DNA from: a virus
Strand: one strand, 5' to 3'
DNA: 20,325 nt
IMG/VR virus record: IMGVR_UViG_3300019880_000033
Location: 1-20,325 of that record
Shown here: piece by piece, positions 2,708 through 19,193 of the stretch
How positions within the stretch are numbered: the stretch's first letter is position 1
How the letters are laid out: each line of letters starts with the position of its first letter
The notes under the pieces: model-generated
Told to the model about the DNA's origin: nothing
Database searches by the model: none
Seen by the model: the letters and a program-made list of their open reading frames with translations, nothing else
Position numbers and translations under genes: made by a program

Positions 2708-2824
2708 ATGAATATAGTTAGATTAATAAGGGTGGTAATTCAGTTCCTGTTTATAGTAAGCATATTAGTTGTGGCAATAACTTATGGGTTAATACTGGTT
2801 CCACTTGGAGTCAATAATGATTGA
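2708..2824 (+). CDS. Small single-pass membrane peptide (38 aa)
   Basis: A 38-aa peptide with a short positively charged start (MNIVRLIR) followed by about 25 hydrophobic residues (about 9-33: VVIQFLFIVSILVVAITYG then LILVPLG) and a polar tail VNND. By the positive-inside rule the N-terminus would stay in the cytoplasm. It starts about 25 nt downstream of the -10 of the candidate promoter, with GGTG 8 nt before the ATG, and overlaps the next gene by 8 nt. Small membrane peptides in phages include holins, antiholins and superinfection-exclusion peptides; nothing here chooses between them. The continuous hydrophobic run is unlikely by chance. Confidence 0.6.
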   Translation: MNIVRLIRVVIQFLFIVSILVVAITYGLILVPLGVNND

Positions 2825-3008
2825 TAGATTTGGCAGAACAGTGTCAGTAGGGGACAGAGTAAAGTTACCCAATGGAGATGTTGTATTAGTATTGGGTCAG
2901 TTAGATATCAGGCGCGAAGTAAAGATGAATCAATGTGAAATTGTGGACCGTAAGACTAAGCTAAAGAGAACTAATAGACCTGTTGTTGGTGAGGTAATGT
3001 ATGGATAG
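2817..3008 (+). CDS. SH3-like small protein (63 aa), paralogue of the 7738-7998 product
   Basis: A 63-aa protein beginning MIDRFGRTVSVGDRVKL and containing NGDVVLVLG. This G-D-x-V plus GDVVLV pattern is typical of small SH3-like (KOW-type) beta barrels. The same pattern, including the later C-x2-VD-x2-T-x-L part, appears in the protein at 7738-7998, so the two are diverged copies. ATG at 2817 is preferred over an in-frame TTG at 2805 because TTGGAG then becomes its ribosome site. It overlaps the next gene by 8 nt. The specific role is unknown; SH3-like folds in phages bind proteins or nucleic acid. Confidence 0.75.
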   Translation: MIDRFGRTVSVGDRVKLPNGDVVLVLGQLDIRREVKMNQCEIVDRKTKLKRTNRPVVGEVMYG

Positions 3009-3288
3009 AAGAACTTTTATTCTAACAGTTCTGTCACTTCCTCTAATCAATAAACTGATTCCATCTCCAGTTAGACTTGCATCTGATAAGTTTAATTATA
3101 AACCACATCCCTCTCAGTTAGCATTCTTTGAACGCGAAGGCCCAGAAATATTATGGGGTCTTCCATATCATGAATCTAATGCATCAGTAGGAACATGGTG
3201 TGGAATTAGCAGGTCAAGCCCTGAAACACAGGAAGCTATATTAGAAATGGTTAAGAAACTTCAAGAAGATAAATCAGTATGGCAATAG
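3001..3288 (+). CDS. 95-aa protein with Tat-like N-terminus and a capsid-like segment
   Basis: The N-terminus MDRRTFILTVLSLPLINKL has a twin arginine at 3-4 followed by a hydrophobic stretch, resembling a Tat signal or anchor, though no clear AxA cleavage site follows. Residues 52-72 (WGLPYHESNASVGTW and on to RS) match residues 230-250 of this phage's own major capsid protein (FGVPYHHSNASTGTW and on to RS) at 14 of 21 positions, and the DNA is also visibly similar. The C-terminus is a short helix (ETQEAILEMVKKLQED). GAGG precedes the ATG, and it overlaps both neighbours. No known function. It could be a capsid-derived decoy, an exclusion factor, or a coincidental shared peptide motif. Confidence 0.75.
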   Translation: MDRRTFILTVLSLPLINKLIPSPVRLASDKFNYKPHPSQLAFFEREGPEILWGLPYHESNASVGTWCGISRSSPETQEAILEMVKKLQEDKSVWQ

Positions 3289-3848
3289 GAATAGTCAACG
3301 ATGATGATTTTAATTTGGAGATAGATAAGTGTAATACTGTTCCATCTAAGCCAATCATTATACCCGAAGTAATTCCAATTGAACGTGGCCGAGGCAAGGG
3401 TAATGTAGCGGTTCCAGAATCTTTACAGAAAATTATTGGTGAAGAATCTAATATAAATGGAAGACAAGAAGCAATTGTACTTGCTCAATCTTTTGGAATT
3501 AGCCCAAGTTCTGTCTCAGCTTATGCTAATGGAGCGGCATCAACTTCAACTTATAATGAAACGAAACCATCCATTCGACAACACATTAATGCAGCAAAAG
3601 AACGAATCAGTAAGAAGGCCAGAGGAAAATTACTGGCTGCCTTAAATGAAATCACTCCAGATAAATTAAAAGAAGTAACTAAGCTACGTGACATATCAGG
3701 AATCGCGAAGGATTTATCTGGTATAGTTCGTGATATGGAACCTGCCAAAGAAGAATTAGCCGATACAAGTAATCGACCCACCTTCGTATTCTACTCTCCT
3801 TCGTTTAAAAAAGAAGAACACTTCGAAACAATTATTTTGAATGAATGA
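3279..3848 (+). CDS. terS: Terminase small subunit
   Basis: A 189-aa protein, the usual size for a small terminase, which recognises the packaging site and controls the large subunit. Residues 61-85 (GRQEAIVLAQSFGISPSSVS) fit a helix-turn-helix. The middle (about 100-160) is helical and Lys/Glu-rich, suitable for oligomer formation. The C-terminus RPTFVFYSPSFKKEEHFETI resembles the conserved tail of many phage TerS proteins that contacts TerL. The call rests on this architecture and on TerL lying five genes downstream. It overlaps the preceding gene by 10 nt and ends with ATGA shared with the next start. No catalytic residues are expected. Confidence 0.75.
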   Translation: MAIGIVNDDDFNLEIDKCNTVPSKPIIIPEVIPIERGRGKGNVAVPESLQKIIGEESNINGRQEAIVLAQSFGISPSSVSAYANGAASTSTYNETKPSIRQHINAAKERISKKARGKLLAALNEITPDKLKEVTKLRDISGIAKDLSGIVRDMEPAKEELADTSNRPTFVFYSPSFKKEEHFETIILNE

Positions 3849-4747: not shown

Positions 4748-5454
4748 AGACTAAAGTATTCATAGGAGTTCCTACATCTGAAACTGGACGCGCAGCAGTA
4801 TTCTATGACTATGTAAATAACCTGCATAAACCTGAAGGAACAATTGGTGCAGGATTTCATACATCTTCTGGTGCAATGAATAGGAATCTAATAATCGAAG
4901 AAGCAATCAGAACTAATTGTACTCATATATTATTTATTGATGATGACATGGCATTTCCCCCTAATGCTTTGAATAAATTATTAAGCCATGAAACAAGTAT
5001 CGTTTCTGGGTTATATTTTAATCGTAGCTATCCTCATAATCCTGTTCTATTCGATTATAATGCAAACAGCAAGTTTTCTAGGCATTTTCTAAGTGACGAT
5101 GAACATGGTCTTTATAAATGCGAGGCAGTAGGATTTGGATTTCTTCTAGTCAATACAAAGGTTTTTCAGTCATTGGTGAAACCTTTTGTAAGAATGGGGG
5201 AAGTTAGGTCTGATGAAAGAAACGAAGATATTGGATTTTGTCTTAGATGTAGGCAAGCTGGATTTAAAATTTATTGTGATTTAGATTTACCAATAGGCCA
5301 TATTGGACAGGCTACATTCTGGCCTAGTTATGTTAATGGAATATGGTGTACAGCTATTGATACTAATGGAGACCAGATTGCATATATTCCTCAATTAACA
5401 AATCCAAATATTCCTGATGGAATGACTTCTTTGGAATATCTGGAAAAGAAGTAA
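4744..5454 (+). CDS. GT-A-fold glycosyltransferase
   Basis: A 236-aa protein resembling nucleotide-sugar-dependent glycosyltransferases. After an N-terminal beta strand (KVFIGVPTSE) comes an N-R-N helix (about 44-57), then HILFIDDDMAFPPNAL at 61-76. The acidic cluster D66-D67-D68 supplies the metal-binding DXD of GT-A enzymes. A conserved GFGFLLVNTKVF (130-141), NEDIGFCLRCRQAGF (160-174) and a late GHIG with His186 match the usual acceptor, catalytic-acid and C-terminal metal sites. It could modify the virion, host surface glycans or DNA. It starts on the previous stop (ATGA) and ends on the TerL start (TAATG), so it is made with the packaging genes. Confidence 0.8.
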   Translation: MKTKVFIGVPTSETGRAAVFYDYVNNLHKPEGTIGAGFHTSSGAMNRNLIIEEAIRTNCTHILFIDDDMAFPPNALNKLLSHETSIVSGLYFNRSYPHNPVLFDYNANSKFSRHFLSDDEHGLYKCEAVGFGFLLVNTKVFQSLVKPFVRMGEVRSDERNEDIGFCLRCRQAGFKIYCDLDLPIGHIGQATFWPSYVNGIWCTAIDTNGDQIAYIPQLTNPNIPDGMTSLEYLEKK

Positions 5455-7130
5455 TGGGATTTTCAGGCAATGAATGGAAACCAAATCGAAAGCAGGAAAT
5501 CTTTCTATCTGTCCCAACTACGATTAAAGAAGCATTTTATGGGGGTGGTGCGGGTTCGGGTAAATCAGACGTATTGCTTGTTTATGGTATTGTCCATAAG
5601 TGGCACGAGAACCCAGCATTTAAACAAGTATTCTTACGTAGAACTTTCCCAGAATTAAGAAATGAAATAGTTCCACGCAGTCGAGAGATATTTCCTAGAT
5701 TTGGAGCATCATTTAATAAGACTGATATGGCTTGGACCTTTCCACGATTAGACCAATTTGGTGGAACAGGTATGGCCAATATGGGGGCAATGATATTTCT
5801 GGGTCATTGTGAGGATGAGACTGATGTTAAGAAATATGATACAATGGAAATCAGTCTATTTACTCCAGATGAAATTACGTCACTTACTGAATATATATAT
5901 CTCTATATCGCCTTCGAACGTAATAGAAGTCCTAAAGATAGTGGCTTACCCAGTATTACTCGTGGTGCTGGTATGCCTGGGGGTATTGGACATACTTTTA
6001 CAAAAAAGAGATTTGTAGACCCATATCCTTTGGGTGGAAAGATACTAATAGGTAAAGGTGGAAATAAAAGAATTTATATTCATGCTACTCTTGCGGATAA
6101 CGAAGAACATATTGACCCTACGTATTCTCAATCACTTGATGGAAGACCTGAAGCAGAAAGAAAAGCTAAGAAATTTGGAGACTGGTCCGCGTATTTAGGA
6201 CAAGTATTCGATGAGTTTAGGGACCGAAGATATCCTGATGAACCCGAAAATGCACTGCATGTAATTCCTCCATTCAATATACCAGATTGGTGGCCCAAGA
6301 TGGTAATAGGTGATTGGGGATTTGCAGCAATGTGCTACATAGGATTCTATGCCATATCTCCTTCCAAACGTCTCTACCTTTATAGAGAATTGCATTGGCT
6401 TAAAACCAAAATTTCGGATTGGGCCACTGTTATCAAGGACTTATGCGATAAAGAAAATCCTCGAATCATCAAGTTCTGTAAATCAGCAGGACAAGATAGA
6501 GGACAAGAGCATACAATCCAACAGCAAATAAGTGAAGCATTAGGAAGACCAGTTGATTTAACTAATAATCAGGCTGGTTCGCGAGTAGCTGGTAAGATGT
6601 TACTTCATGAATATTTTAGATGGAAACAACGCCCTGCGATTCCACCTGAAGAAATGCCAATCTATGATGAAGAAAGAGCATTTTGGATTCTACGTAACAA
6701 AGGATTAGCAGAATATAAAGCCTATCTCAAAACTTTTGACCCACCTGAAGAAGAAAATAATATTCCTATTATTCAAATATTTAGATGTGATGAAGAACAT
6801 CATGATGGACATCCTAATTGCTGCCCAGTAATGATTGATTCTATCAAGGCTTGTTCATATGATAAGCCTAAGAATAATAAACCAGCAGAAGATGTAGCCG
6901 AATTTGAGGGTGATGACCCTTATGATGATTTGAGATATGCTGCCGATTCCGCTGAAATGTATTATGAAGAAGCGGCCGAAGAATTTAAAAAAATTCAACA
7001 GCAGGAACAACTAATCCAAAGATTAACATCAAATGGAGACTTCACTGCATTTTATCGGCAGATGAGAACTGTTGATGCAGCTAATGGTGGATTTGAAAAC
7101 ATTCGTAGGTTTCATTCTTCGAGGAGATAA
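5454..7130 (+). CDS. terL: Terminase large subunit (packaging ATPase and nuclease)
   Basis: A 558-aa protein that drives DNA into the procapsid and cuts the concatemer. The N-terminal ATPase has Walker A GGGAGSGKS at residues 30-38 and a Walker B candidate MEISLFTPDE at 131-140 (D139-E140). The C-terminal RNase H-like nuclease begins around MVIGDWGF (283-290), with D287 as the first acidic ligand. Further acidic sites are likely in the later part (for example around DPYDDLRYAAD). The length is typical of the family. It overlaps the glycosyltransferase stop as TAATG and runs straight into the next gene by the same overlap. Confidence 0.93.
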   Translation: MGFSGNEWKPNRKQEIFLSVPTTIKEAFYGGGAGSGKSDVLLVYGIVHKWHENPAFKQVFLRRTFPELRNEIVPRSREIFPRFGASFNKTDMAWTFPRLDQFGGTGMANMGAMIFLGHCEDETDVKKYDTMEISLFTPDEITSLTEYIYLYIAFERNRSPKDSGLPSITRGAGMPGGIGHTFTKKRFVDPYPLGGKILIGKGGNKRIYIHATLADNEEHIDPTYSQSLDGRPEAERKAKKFGDWSAYLGQVFDEFRDRRYPDEPENALHVIPPFNIPDWWPKMVIGDWGFAAMCYIGFYAISPSKRLYLYRELHWLKTKISDWATVIKDLCDKENPRIIKFCKSAGQDRGQEHTIQQQISEALGRPVDLTNNQAGSRVAGKMLLHEYFRWKQRPAIPPEEMPIYDEERAFWILRNKGLAEYKAYLKTFDPPEEENNIPIIQIFRCDEEHHDGHPNCCPVMIDSIKACSYDKPKNNKPAEDVAEFEGDDPYDDLRYAADSAEMYYEEAAEEFKKIQQQEQLIQRLTSNGDFTAFYRQMRTVDAANGGFENIRRFHSSRR

Positions 7131-7468: not shown

Positions 7469-7736
7469 TGCAGGGCCATCAGAAGGATTTCTAAGTAGAG
7501 CATTTGGTAAAAAGAAAATGTCTGGTGTATCGTCAGGTTCATCTTCAACCGCGAAGGAACCATATAAACGAACTAAACGCGATGAAGAAGTAAGTGCAGA
7601 AGGTAAATCATACGAAGGTAGTCGTGCTAGTAAGAATGATGATGAAGATGATGGTGGAATCTTTTCATCCGTGAGAAAAATGAAGAAGAAGTACAATCCA
7701 TTTGATAGATTTGTTGAAGCAACGAAAGGAAAATAA
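7461..7736 (+). CDS. Low-complexity charged protein (91 aa)
   Basis: A 91-aa disordered protein with a Gly/Ser/Lys N-terminal half (GFLSRAFGKKKMSGVSSGSS), an acidic patch DDEDDGG at about 61-67, and a basic end KMKKKYNPFDRFVEATKGK. No domain. It overlaps the previous gene by 8 nt. Such linkers often accompany portal and scaffold genes, but no role can be assigned. Confidence 0.6.
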   Translation: MASAGPSEGFLSRAFGKKKMSGVSSGSSSTAKEPYKRTKRDEEVSAEGKSYEGSRASKNDDEDDGGIFSSVRKMKKKYNPFDRFVEATKGK

Positions 7737-7737
7737 A

Positions 7738-7998
7738 ATGGCTAATGGAATTGTTGACTGCACAGGAAAAGCTATCAATATTGGTGACAAAGTTAGAACA
7801 GAACATGGCGATGTAATTTTAGTTCGTGGTGGAATGGTAAGTGAACATAAGTTATTTAATGCTGAGAAATGTTCACATGTAGATAAGAATACACCATTAA
7901 CTAATACGGGTCATATCAGTTCTTTATTAACAAATGAATTGGCGGGTGAAAAGAAAAAGCCAGTTGTTGTATATGATTGTGTAGTTTGGGGAACATAA
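7738..7998 (+). CDS. SH3-like small protein (86 aa), paralogue of the 2817-3008 product
   Basis: An 86-aa protein with GKAINIGDKVRTEHGDVILV near the start (about residues 10-29), matching GRTVSVGDRVKLPNGDVVLV in the 63-aa protein at 2817-3008. A second shared block follows (C-x2-VD-x2-T-x-L). It carries an extra 25-residue C-terminus (KKKPVVVYDCVVWGT). AAAGGA lies upstream of the ATG; an in-frame TTG at 7702 is not preferred because it would overlap the upstream gene without a ribosome site. Probably a small beta-barrel accessory protein made with head genes. Confidence 0.7.
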   Translation: MANGIVDCTGKAINIGDKVRTEHGDVILVRGGMVSEHKLFNAEKCSHVDKNTPLTNTGHISSLLTNELAGEKKKPVVVYDCVVWGT

Positions 7999-11828: not shown

Positions 11829-11942
11829 ATGAGAATTTTTCTTCCAAATCAAGAAGGTGGAATCGATGTATCTATCTTCATGATTACATGGTTACAGAAA
11901 AATTACGTGATTAACAGGGAGATGAAACATGGCATTAGTTGA
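11829..11942 (+). CDS. Possible 37-aa peptide before the capsid gene
   Basis: A 37-aa frame, MRIFLPNQEGGIDVSIFMIT followed by WLQKNYVINREMKHGIS, filling the gap between scaffold and capsid and overlapping the capsid start by 14 nt. It has no Shine-Dalgarno of its own. It may be a real small gene or simply the capsid leader; the only support is its neat fit. Confidence 0.35.
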   Translation: MRIFLPNQEGGIDVSIFMITWLQKNYVINREMKHGIS

Positions 11943-13185
11943 GGCACAGGTTACAGCTCTTGAATTAGAGCGTGTAATCCCAAAGATTAGAGTTCTATTT
12001 GAAAGAGATGATAAATTCTACGCCAATATCAAGAAGCGTGACGTAGAGAAAATTTCTAATCGGCAGATGCGAGTTCCATTGGAATTAAGACCCGGTGGTT
12101 CATTCCAGTACTTTAATGCTGATGGGGGTGATTTAGGACGCGGTGGCGGGCCAACATTTGATAAGGCTGTACTTACTTCAGTATTCGTATCAGAGAATAT
12201 TGAATACACGAAGTTAAGTCAGTGGGCTACTGATGATGAACGCAAGGCAATTGTCAATTCAGTTAGACGTTTAACGGCTACTGCATTAGATGAATTGCGT
12301 CGTCAGTTAGACGCACAGATGATGCAGCCTGGTAATGGTGTAATCGGTACTGCTACTGTTTACACCGTGGGAACACCCGCTGGTTCAGATACTATCACAT
12401 TAACAACAGATGGATTCGGTGCAAGATTAATGAGGTTTGGACAGACTGTTCAAATCTTTGATGCAACACTTGCAACGAATAAAGGTTCTGCTGTTATTAC
12501 ATCATGGGATGTTGAGAACAAAACAATTCAGATTACTCCATCTATTCCTGCTGGATTAACTACTGATTTGATTGTTACCAACGGTATTTCAGCTCCTACT
12601 GCATTACCTGCATTGTTCGGTGTTCCATATCATCATAGCAATGCATCTACTGGAACATGGCTTGGATTTGCTCGTTCTGCAACTCCTGAAATTCGAGCCA
12701 ATAGAGTTAATGCGGGTTCTGCTGCATTAACACTTCCACTCCCCAGATTAGCAATTAACAAGATTGGTAATCGCATTGGATTGGATAATAATTTCAGTCC
12801 GAATGCATGGATGCATCCTGCACAGCAACAGGCTTATGAGGAAATTGGACAGCTTGTGTCCATTATTCATAAGGGTGCTAAGGATGAAGCGTTGGATTTG
12901 TATTTCAACGATAACATGCAGATGGCTGGTGCCCCAGTTAAGAAATCTTATAACTGGGATAAAACACGTATTGACTTCGTTACAGATGATGTATGGGGTC
13001 GTGGAGAAATTCTTCCAATTGGTTTCTATACAACTGATGGAAGAAAAATCTTCGAAATTCGTGGAGCATCAGGTGGTGTAGCTGCGGCTGATATCTTCTA
13101 CATGGTAGTTGGTATGCAGACATTTGTGAGCAATCCTGCTGGTTGTTCATACATTGATGCATTAGCCGTTCCAACGGGGTATTAA
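11929..13185 (+). CDS. Major capsid protein (HK97-fold by context)
   Basis: A 418-aa protein placed after the scaffold-type gene with a strong ribosome site (GGGAG, 8 nt before ATG). The N-terminal region (about 10-70) suits the N-arm and spine helix. The family-typical core segment FGVPYHHSNASTGTW lies at residues 230-244, followed by RANRVNAGSAALTLP and a helix-rich domain (about 270-330). Lys codons are mostly AAG, as in the other probably highly expressed gene. The fold itself is inferred from gene order, length and family-like motifs. Its 230-250 segment reappears in the small protein at 3001-3288. Confidence 0.85.
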   Translation: MALVEAQVTALELERVIPKIRVLFERDDKFYANIKKRDVEKISNRQMRVPLELRPGGSFQYFNADGGDLGRGGGPTFDKAVLTSVFVSENIEYTKLSQWATDDERKAIVNSVRRLTATALDELRRQLDAQMMQPGNGVIGTATVYTVGTPAGSDTITLTTDGFGARLMRFGQTVQIFDATLATNKGSAVITSWDVENKTIQITPSIPAGLTTDLIVTNGISAPTALPALFGVPYHHSNASTGTWLGFARSATPEIRANRVNAGSAALTLPLPRLAINKIGNRIGLDNNFSPNAWMHPAQQQAYEEIGQLVSIIHKGAKDEALDLYFNDNMQMAGAPVKKSYNWDKTRIDFVTDDVWGRGEILPIGFYTTDGRKIFEIRGASGGVAAADIFYMVVGMQTFVSNPAGCSYIDALAVPTGY

Positions 13186-16978: not shown

Positions 16979-17292
16979 TGGCTGAATTGAAAATTAAAAC
17001 TGGGGTTAAACCAAGAAGTTTAGTGATAGCTGCTGCTGTAGTTAATGCAGCTAATGAGATGAAATTAGATAAGTATATGCTTATCACTAGTGGTAATGAT
17101 GGCAAGCATGGTATAGATAGTAAGCATTATTCAGATGAAGCATTAGATTTTAGAACAAAACATCTAGATAATTTTCAACTGGAATTGTTAATTAAGACAG
17201 TAAAACGGCATCTTGGTAAAGGATATCAATTAATAGTAGAGGAAAGAACTAAGGAAAATGAACATCTTCATATTGAGTATGACCCGGTATGA
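16978..17292 (+). CDS. M15-type peptidase (cell-wall endopeptidase)
   Basis: A 104-aa compact protein with the M15 zinc peptidase signature: SKHYSDEALDFR at residues 48-59 (H50 and D57 as metal ligands) and EHLHIEYDP at 95-103 (H96/H98 as the late ligand). The first part (LITSGNDGKHG) also fits. Such enzymes cut peptide cross-links in peptidoglycan, acting as endolysin or as virion-associated entry enzyme. Its place between connector and nozzle-like genes leaves both options open; no holin is next to it. No signal peptide. Starts on a TAATG and ends with ATGA into the next gene. Confidence 0.8.
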   Translation: MAELKIKTGVKPRSLVIAAAVVNAANEMKLDKYMLITSGNDGKHGIDSKHYSDEALDFRTKHLDNFQLELLIKTVKRHLGKGYQLIVEERTKENEHLHIEYDPV

Positions 17293-19193
17293 GAGACCAT
17301 GAACCATTAACACTCGAAGATTTTAACGGCTACTTTAATCGTGGTGACCCTGAAACTGTGCCCGAAGACCATTTTGTAGAAATTAATAATATTCAATTTA
17401 CAGAATCTGGATTTGAAACTAGAGATGGAATAGATTTATATCAGAGTCCTGTTGGAATTGCATTAGATAATGCTGTTCGAATTCAACCTTTTACTTTACA
17501 GAGTCAGCAATCTTTATTAGTTCTCACTACTGGTGGAAATATTCATCATATAATATCATCTACTGTAGTTCATCTAAATATACTTCAAAAGCCATTAATG
17601 ACTGATTTTAATGCTGCGGCCATAGCTGGTCGAGCATATATTACACCGTTCTTTACCAATGCGAATAATCAGGAAGTGGGATTACAAAATGAATTTCTTT
17701 ACGTTTATTTGGGTGCAGGCGTAACAGCACGTAAAGCCGCGGGGCCTAAACCTACTGGTCCTGCATTAATTGCAACTGCATCCGGGGTGGGATTTAGTGA
17801 TGTAGGATTTAAATTATTTGCGGTGGTATATGAAACTGATACAGGATATCTTACAGCACTTGGACCAGCTATTTTTGCATCTGCTACTTCTGTTAGTAAT
17901 ACTATCGGATTTGATATTTCTAATATTCCTGTTTCTCCTGATGTATTCGTTTTAAAGAAACATATAGTAGCAACTAAAACTATTCTAAATTATAATGGGG
18001 ACCAAGATGGGTATGAGTTCTTTTTTGTTCCTGGTGGTGATATGCTTAACGCTGTCACTACCAAGCATATTGATTTTTTTGATATTGACTTGCTCGAAGA
18101 AGCATCTCGTCTTATCGATAATTTTTCTGAAATACCTGCTGGTGTTGGACTTACTACGTATCATGGTCGTCTTGTTCTTACCACAACTTTCACGGATATT
18201 TCCATAGCTTATGTATCACATCCGGGTGAACCTGAAGCATTTGACCAAATAGATGGATTACTTATTGTTCCATTAGATGGTAATCCATTAACTAATTGTC
18301 AGGAATATCGAGACGTATTATATTTATTTAAGAAAACTAGAACGGTTGGATATTCGGATAATCAAGATGTTCCCAGCACTTGGCAACCATTTATCGTTGA
18401 TGAGGGTGTTGGTGCTCCTGTTCATGGAATTGCTACTGTTTTGGATTCTGGTGGAGTTAACGTAGATTTTCTACTTATTGCTGATTTTTCTGGTATCATG
18501 TTATTTAATGGGGCTTATACCAGACCTGAACTTAGTTGGAAAATAAGAAATTATTGGTTTGGATTAGATAGAACTCAATTCCGAAAGATTGAATTAATCA
18601 ATGATTCAATTGGAGAAAAATTATATTGTGTTCTTCCTACAGGAACTGTATTAGTAGGTAATTATCAGAATGGAATGAATCCCAAAACTATTAGATGGTC
18701 TAAATGGATTTTTGACGTTCCAATAACTACTCTAGAACTAATTGATACTAGTACGATTCTTTTGGGTGCAACTGTAAATGCGAGCAATCAATCGGGAATA
18801 TATAAAGTTATACCAGCTAAGACAAATGATACTTTGTATGACCTCGCGAATACGGTTTCGGTTGTTAAGATTCCAAATCCTCTAATTCAAACAGCATTTA
18901 CTGATGTTACTGAAGGGGAAACTATAGTTCATTTCACTGCAATAAAACTAAGAGTAATTGGAACTGGAAATCTTCTGATGACACTTTATTCATTAGATAA
19001 GGTAATATCTGAAGTATTAGTTCCAATTCCAATGACATTACTTTCAGACCGTCAACCTACTAGATTAGCCAATTTTCAAACTCAGAAAGCTAGTTTAGAA
19101 TTAAAGACTACAGTATTAAATGAGATATTTAAGATTAATAGAATTATTGTTTTTGCCAAGGAAGTATTTGCTGATTTTCCATCTGTTCAATGA
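17289..19193 (+). CDS. Tail nozzle / hub-like beta-propeller protein
   Basis: A 634-aa protein with an opening typical of podovirus nozzle/hub proteins: DFNGYFNRGDPETVPEDHF at residues 11-29 and FETRDGI at 42-48. The rest is dominated by regular beta strands (for example SLLVLTTGGNIHHI, LFAVVYETDTGYL, EYRDVLYLFKKTR), as in a beta propeller. Nozzle proteins form the terminal tube of short tails and contact the cell surface or needle. There is no signal or membrane helix. It overlaps the peptidase stop as ATGA and its own stop overlaps the next start. The nozzle assignment rests on pattern and position, not on a specific motif. Confidence 0.65.
   Translation: MRDHEPLTLEDFNGYFNRGDPETVPEDHFVEINNIQFTESGFETRDGIDLYQSPVGIALDNAVRIQPFTLQSQQSLLVLTTGGNIHHIISSTVVHLNILQKPLMTDFNAAAIAGRAYITPFFTNANNQEVGLQNEFLYVYLGAGVTARKAAGPKPTGPALIATASGVGFSDVGFKLFAVVYETDTGYLTALGPAIFASATSVSNTIGFDISNIPVSPDVFVLKKHIVATKTILNYNGDQDGYEFFFVPGGDMLNAVTTKHIDFFDIDLLEEASRLIDNFSEIPAGVGLTTYHGRLVLTTTFTDISIAYVSHPGEPEAFDQIDGLLIVPLDGNPLTNCQEYRDVLYLFKKTRTVGYSDNQDVPSTWQPFIVDEGVGAPVHGIATVLDSGGVNVDFLLIADFSGIMLFNGAYTRPELSWKIRNYWFGLDRTQFRKIELINDSIGEKLYCVLPTGTVLVGNYQNGMNPKTIRWSKWIFDVPITTLELIDTSTILLGATVNASNQSGIYKVIPAKTNDTLYDLANTVSVVKIPNPLIQTAFTDVTEGETIVHFTAIKLRVIGTGNLLMTLYSLDKVISEVLVPIPMTLLSDRQPTRLANFQTQKASLELKTTVLNEIFKINRIIVFAKEVFADFPSVQ

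Follow-up and report, generated by a model that had tools for sequence, protein, structure and literature searches.

The gene at 3001–3288 of the window, which is the whole 20,325-base IMG/VR virus record analysed here, encodes one of the small phage proteins of a family with at least 60 distinct members, in which a twin-arginine (Tat-type) leader comes first and a variable C-terminus follows. In the window protein and more than 30 others, an RR-type leader stands directly before a piece homologous to the major capsid protein (MCP), and the gene lies outside the MCP locus. The carriers are soil phages. The best explanation, to which we assign a probability of roughly 0.4, is that these proteins are capsid mimics with a Tat-type leader that act against an MCP-sensing defence or against the MCP of a rival phage.

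The open reading frame starts with ATG and overlaps the gene upstream by 8 bases (Table 1). BLASTP aligns residues 51–77 of the protein with residues 229–256 of the window MCP at 17 of 28 identical positions (E = 7e-10). The Smith-Waterman score against the MCP is 91, while 5000 shuffles reach a maximum of 51 and the other window genes tested a best score of 47. An MCP profile matches the piece at iE = 1.2e-7, and none of 630 shuffled copies falls below 0.01. A preliminary description of this DNA had reported 14 of 21 identical residues between residues 52–72 and MCP residues 230–250, together with parallel DNA similarity between 3154–3216 and 12616–12678. The residue count proved exact, the DNA similarity amounts to 42 of 63 bases, and the capsid origin proposed for the segment is borne out: the piece is almost certainly capsid-derived. 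Chance similarity, in favour of which only the shortness of the match (28 residues) can be named, is refuted by the E-value, by the 5000 shuffles and by recurrence of the same piece in four other phages, and its probability is negligible. Since the codons at two conserved Ser and Arg positions lie at least two bases apart (TCT/AGC, AGG/CGT), the similarity reflects conservation at the protein level and not a recent DNA copy. With 28 of the 418 MCP residues matched, the protein lacks a full-length shell-forming fold, and at 95 residues it cannot hold the HK97 fold. The whole protein has no Pfam match and no significant PHROG match (best E = 0.15); used as a query, it found no relative in a direct search of the viral contigs and gave matches at chance level only against 50,697 named phages.

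Table 1. Features of the window that bear on the leader and capsid-piece gene.
Feature	Position	Strand	Basis
Gene for leader and capsid-piece protein, 95 aa	3001..3288	+	ORF list; same layout in homologues L020, L114, L149, L235
Twin-arginine type leader, residues 1–20, MDRRTFILTVLSLPLINKLI	3001..3060	+	Sequence; Pfam TAT_signal match in relative L089
MCP-derived piece, residues 51–77	3151..3231	+	BLASTP E = 7e-10; MCP profile iE = 1.2e-7
C-terminal tail, residues 78–95, without MCP similarity	3232..3285	+	Sequence; alignment
Small-terminase-like conserved core gene, immediately downstream of 3001..3288	3279..3848	+	Relatives before TerL in many MCP loci
Terminase large subunit	5454..7130	+	PHROG 979, E = 1.3e-32
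Major capsid protein, HK97 fold, parent family of the piece	11929..13185	+	AF2, Foldseek, PHROG 14242
MCP segment homologous to the piece, MCP residues 229–256	12613..12696	+	BLASTP; alignments; DSSP

Judged by its predicted structure, the donor is a genuine MCP. An AlphaFold model built from a 67-sequence alignment reached a pLDDT of 84.5 and a pTM of 0.80 (an earlier model from 30 close sequences had a pLDDT of 44.5), and Foldseek placed it among HK97-fold capsids, with a best PDB E-value of 3e-11 and a best viral match (BFVD) to a phage MCP at E = 1.5e-24. The match to the PHROG 14242 major head protein has E = 2.8e-4. According to DSSP, the segment shared with the piece directly follows an inserted beta domain (about residues 138–217), and in the alignments it contains the near-invariant residues G231, P233, Y234, H235, G242, W244 and R249. 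The MCP as a query found no relative among the 50,697 named phages, and its profile found nothing relevant among PDB sequences; in viral contigs, some 300 candidate stretches encode MCP relatives. The product of the small-terminase-like gene contains a weak HTH. The gene directly upstream of the leader gene (2823–3008) has a small paralogue at 7735–7998 (32% identity over 53 aa, E = 3e-9), and the last 90–100 residues of the tail-like protein encoded at 17289–19193 form a separate gene in several relatives.

Among 80 MCP loci, one further small protein stands out (L020:403–744, MERRSFLK...LYGVPYHQSNASTDRWLGFER), whose gene has a glycosyltransferase gene and TerL downstream, the same order as in the window. 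This protein led to L084:10001–10318, to L088/L089 and to L106 and L107; in the latter two, what comes after the leader is the MCP N-terminus (I-x-ALELER-x-x-P-x-I-x-x-LFERDD-x-FY), which matches the MCP of the same record at E = 4e-14 and 8e-9, respectively. Two leader-only alignment scans of viral contigs and one hit in a genome collection together comprise 65 ORFs. The family consensus at the N-terminus is xRRxFLK, and in most members RR-x-F-L is followed by a short hydrophobic run and the block D-x-E-KLLWVPG-x-KTIFLP (wider consensus: RR-x-[FL]-L-[KR], short hydrophobic run, D-x-[ED]-[KR]-LLW-[VI]-PG-x-K-x-I-F-[LI]-P). The window protein has the RR-x-F-L/K motif near its N-terminus and then a hydrophobic run. 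Its leader is a divergent version, most similar to that of L235:5081–5425 (MDRRTFMRALLAVPLAPLIPY), and its block deviates from the conserved form (NKLIPSPVRLASDKFNYKP) in a way also seen in L235:5081–5425 and L240:9585–9870. An alignment of L020 hinted that the leader block LLWVPGEKTIFLP might itself be an MCP copy, which was rejected as leaders alone score no better than shuffles. Homologues without the capsid segment or RR had been named in the preliminary description as evidence against its reading, and L084:10001–10318 is in part such a case: it shares the leader, with CR in place of RR, and has no recognisable capsid piece. This is better explained by C-terminus exchange than by coincidence, because the leader is also seen in combination with three or more different MCP pieces. 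Searches of named phages and of plasmids did not find the leader. A scan of 84,980 genomes gave one match, in an Acidobacteria MAG, and of 396 Acidobacteriota genomes searched with a profile, two contain the leader. At least some hosts may therefore be Acidobacteriota, which we state tentatively as MAG contigs can be misbinned.

The N-terminus had been described as Tat-like. RR and the hydrophobic run are indeed present, but Pfam TAT_signal (PF10518) does not match the window protein. The fuller leader of the relative L089 scores 23.9 bits against a cut-off of 22.7, and several other relatives fall just under the cut-off. Members share with Tat signal peptides the RR-x-F-L-K consensus and the hydrophobic run; they differ from them in that this run is often short and in the extra D-x-E-KLLWVPG-x-KTIFLP block, which is nearly confined to phage contigs. 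More likely than not, the leader is a working Tat-type signal. A TatA-family protein is encoded directly downstream of a leader gene at L240:2656–2844 (record G078; 57 bits, cut-off 21), and a second phage TatA-family protein at G075:14925–15062 (63 bits, cut-off 21). The association of TatA with leader contigs is suggestive; the counts, 2 of 50 leader contigs and 0 of 44 controls, do not differ significantly, and TatA as a general partner of leader genes was rejected on these numbers.

When 63 distinct proteins were searched with profiles of two MCP families, 40 matched one family at iE < 0.01, as did none of 630 shuffled copies. Among 54 proteins found by the leader and not by capsid similarity, 32 (about 60%) match an MCP family profile, a share with a slight bias, as capsid pieces were part of the profile that had first picked up three seeds of the leader alignment. 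The pieces are drawn from the N-terminus, the middle or the C-terminus of the MCP; their overlap with conserved patches of the MCP may stem from biased detection. In phages with the window type of MCP (type 1), most pieces correspond to MCP residues 1–55, and about 20 proteins carry the MCP N-terminus. Middle pieces correspond to residues 219–287 (window, L020, L114, L149, L235) and C-terminal pieces to residues 382–411 (L234 and L236, weak matches with iE of 0.0013 and 0.014). Different pieces can be neighbours: in L235, the gene for an N-terminal piece overlaps the gene for a middle piece, and in L234 a gene with an N-terminal piece is followed two genes on by one with a C-terminal piece.

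Other leader-bearing phages have a P22-type coat (PHROG 283), and here the similarity of the leader proteins is to the coat encoded on the same contig, at its N-terminus (L167, E = 2e-13; L170, 4e-10; L133, 3e-7), its middle (L178, 3e-12; L164, 1e-8) or its C-terminus (L240, 2.5e-6). The L167 protein matched 33 records among the 50,697 named phages; in the 15 listed with annotations, the match is named a coat, capsid or major head protein bar one 'hypothetical protein', the RefSeq twin of which is named major head protein. An Acidobacteriota MAG contig carries two overlapping leader genes (L408:43–611), one with the P22-type coat C-terminus (iE 7e-10) and the other resembling the coat N-terminus by eye only. 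Over both MCP families, C-terminal pieces occur in L234, L236, L240 and L408. Type-1 and P22-type MCPs, both of which we take to be HK97-fold proteins, are not alignable by hhalign (probability 0.6%). Thus, at the level of sequence, the same layout appears with at least two unalignable MCP families. A third MCP type is suggested by L138/L183 (E about 0.001–0.01), to which L132, L139 and L173 add no support. The pairing of RR leader and capsid piece, noted in the preliminary description for one protein, is found again in many phages, where both the piece and the MCP family it comes from vary.

The use of the MCP as a donor is exclusive among the core genes compared. All small and all large ORFs of about 27 contigs were compared, covering the 16 gene families that occur in 10 contigs or more; as the contigs were chosen partly for the leader, this compares donor genes and not frequencies. 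The MCP counts 18 distinct distant small-ORF relatives, spread over 16 contigs. No such relative was found for twelve of the 16 families; among these are terminase, portal and scaffold, named after their window counterparts, and DNA polymerase and helicase-like proteins, named by inspection. The remaining three have 7, 1 and 1, which on inspection look like a naturally separate tail-protein domain and contig ends; small-ORF matches of family 1 look like a naturally separate C-terminal domain, and those of families 31 and 76 are by position apparently antisense artefacts opposite MCP and terminase genes. Hence, the MCP alone among these 16 families is used as a donor. The leader proteins are under purifying selection, with dN/dS of about 0.13–0.31 in pairs for which dS could be estimated. 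In a tree with 67 MCPs, a single split (support 0.78) separates all 21 N-terminal pieces tested from the MCPs, which indicates that type-1 pieces are an old, separately evolving lineage and not the product of repeated recapture. Their similarity to the MCP of the same phage ranks about as expected at random (24 of 41 for the window). Genes for leader and capsid piece are accessory: a piece occurs in 5 of the 20 type-1 records that reach 40 kb, and in other loci that contain the adjacent TerS-like gene, among them that of the closest relative L003 (90% MCP identity), the window gene was not detected. Genes for N-terminal pieces lie in operons with HTH, cold-shock-like and DNA polymerase genes, a context from which early expression is inferred.

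A mimic or antagonist function, as read from these sequences, may apply, at somewhat less than even odds. The piece would show a conserved MCP surface yet build no shell, and would bind a factor that normally meets the MCP. The likeliest target would be an MCP-sensing host defence protein, for which the mimic would be a decoy made before or beside the real MCP; alternatively, the target would be the MCP of a rival phage and the mimic an assembly poison. The role of the leader would be to direct the mimic, together with whatever it has bound, to the membrane or the Tat translocon. Taken singly, the anti-defence decoy is possible but rather unlikely, and interference with a rival capsid slightly less probable still. 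The preliminary description had considered a decoy, a superinfection factor or an assembly regulator. A regulator of the phage's own head assembly that holds nascent shells at the membrane via the MCP piece, or a minor virion part, would agree with the homology of the piece to the MCP, with a leader that could give membrane attachment and with copies adjoining terminase genes in the window and L020. We consider this unlikely because the pieces do not co-vary with their own MCP and are patchily present: the own-MCP rank is near random, the fragments form an old separate clade, the gene is missing from most relatives, even from L003, and many copies lie in early-type operons. That own MCP is not tracked and that the clade is separate is as expected if the partner is not the own shell.

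Similarly unlikely is that the piece was co-opted as a small stable module for a new periplasmic or membrane role unrelated to capsids, such as lysis timing or superinfection exclusion at the envelope. A Tat-type leader predicts an envelope location, and the pieces diverge freely, to the point that recognisable similarity is lost in L084 and L111; however, if MCP-likeness were irrelevant, the independent use of unrelated MCP families and the neighbouring genes with different pieces in L235 and L234 would be hard to explain. Phage genomes are mosaic, and short pieces are also joined to unrelated N-termini (L238), so that open MCP scraps fused by accident to a signal peptide might be envisaged as neutral debris of recombination. 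This is very improbable and largely refuted by purifying selection and by the MCP being the sole donor; moreover, the layout is conserved at clade level and repeated in unrelated MCP families. For the capsid mimic, a broader proposal, which we regard as speculative and improbable as a whole, would be that phages of soil bacteria, probably including Acidobacteriota hosts, encode dedicated sets of mimics, several small genes per genome that each give one MCP patch a Tat-type address. Such sets would bind MCP sensors or rival capsid proteins that are pulled to the membrane or through Tat, sometimes with a phage TatA. They would amount to a weapon of a new kind, directed at host defence or at other phages, with an origin in no fewer than two unrelated MCP families.

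Capsid protein serves as the trigger of many bacterial defences. In animals, Gag-derived restriction factors are captured capsid pieces that act against viruses, but these are retroviral and host-encoded and offer an analogy only. CapRel is triggered directly by the MCP, and Lit/Gol and PifA are cited as related cases in the CapRel paper (PMC9712102). Because such sensors bind or respond to the MCP or a short MCP peptide, an MCP piece would be a plausible decoy. These are host systems, whereas the window family is phage-encoded, and the accessible part of the same paper describes no phage-encoded decoy made of an MCP piece. In SaPIbov5, the satellite-encoded capsid-protein homologue Ccm blocks phage reproduction, which demonstrates that a capsid relative other than the shell protein can interfere with assembly (PMC5052747). 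Ccm has a nearly full-length HK97 fold, in contrast to the short pieces with an RR leader found here, and the contig that encodes the 95-residue window protein is a phage contig that has a terminase and an MCP of its own. Tab, a prophage tail assembly blocker, is likewise phage-encoded and stops virion assembly of invading phages, but it acts on tails, and the accessible part of its description gives no capsid origin (PMC10884400). The preliminary description knew of no family that combines a Tat-like leader with a capsid piece, and the open-access literature likewise yielded none. As far as searched, the parts are of known kinds, while their combination, its recurrence with unrelated capsids and the exclusivity of the MCP are new. 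How phages shield an essential, conserved capsid protein from recognition becomes directly testable with a family in which small export-tagged proteins repeatedly take up patches of the MCP and of no other core protein. The family further provides a handle on the roles that Tat-type signals and TatA play in phages and, among small 'dark matter' genes, represents a further class, one whose origin can be defined.

Several proteins depart from the common layout. The leader is not needed in every variant, since the MCP-piece proteins L236:7219–7542, L237:11100–11426 and L238:9477–9707 have no RR leader. The first two match MCP residues 325–390 and, by eye, begin with a GGDLGR motif like MCP residues 66–71; leaderless proteins of about 108 aa with this start and a C-terminal MCP match (FEIRGASGG) also include G023:17840–18169 on the L295–L297 contig. 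L238:9477–9707 and G018:24300–24584 have a zinc-ribbon-like N-terminus before an MCP N-terminal piece, as an alternative to the RR leader. Some leader members, such as L084 and L111, show no recognisable capsid similarity, and L115, L119–L122 and L126 share a common C-terminus (IPS-x-W..., YRIIDR-x-EAIKRGIL) without an MCP match; L020 has both an MCP middle piece and a tail of this type. The C-terminus of the leader protein L131:9980–10303 weakly matches an ORF of its own contig (LN-x-M-x-DTW-x-x-E, E = 0.006), perhaps a head-tail adaptor, and the leader may carry pieces of further virion proteins too. Finally, L239:3143–3811 encodes a protein of 223 aa without an RR leader that ends in a second P22-type middle piece (VGDVFTIAG), adjoining a leader gene that carries the same piece.
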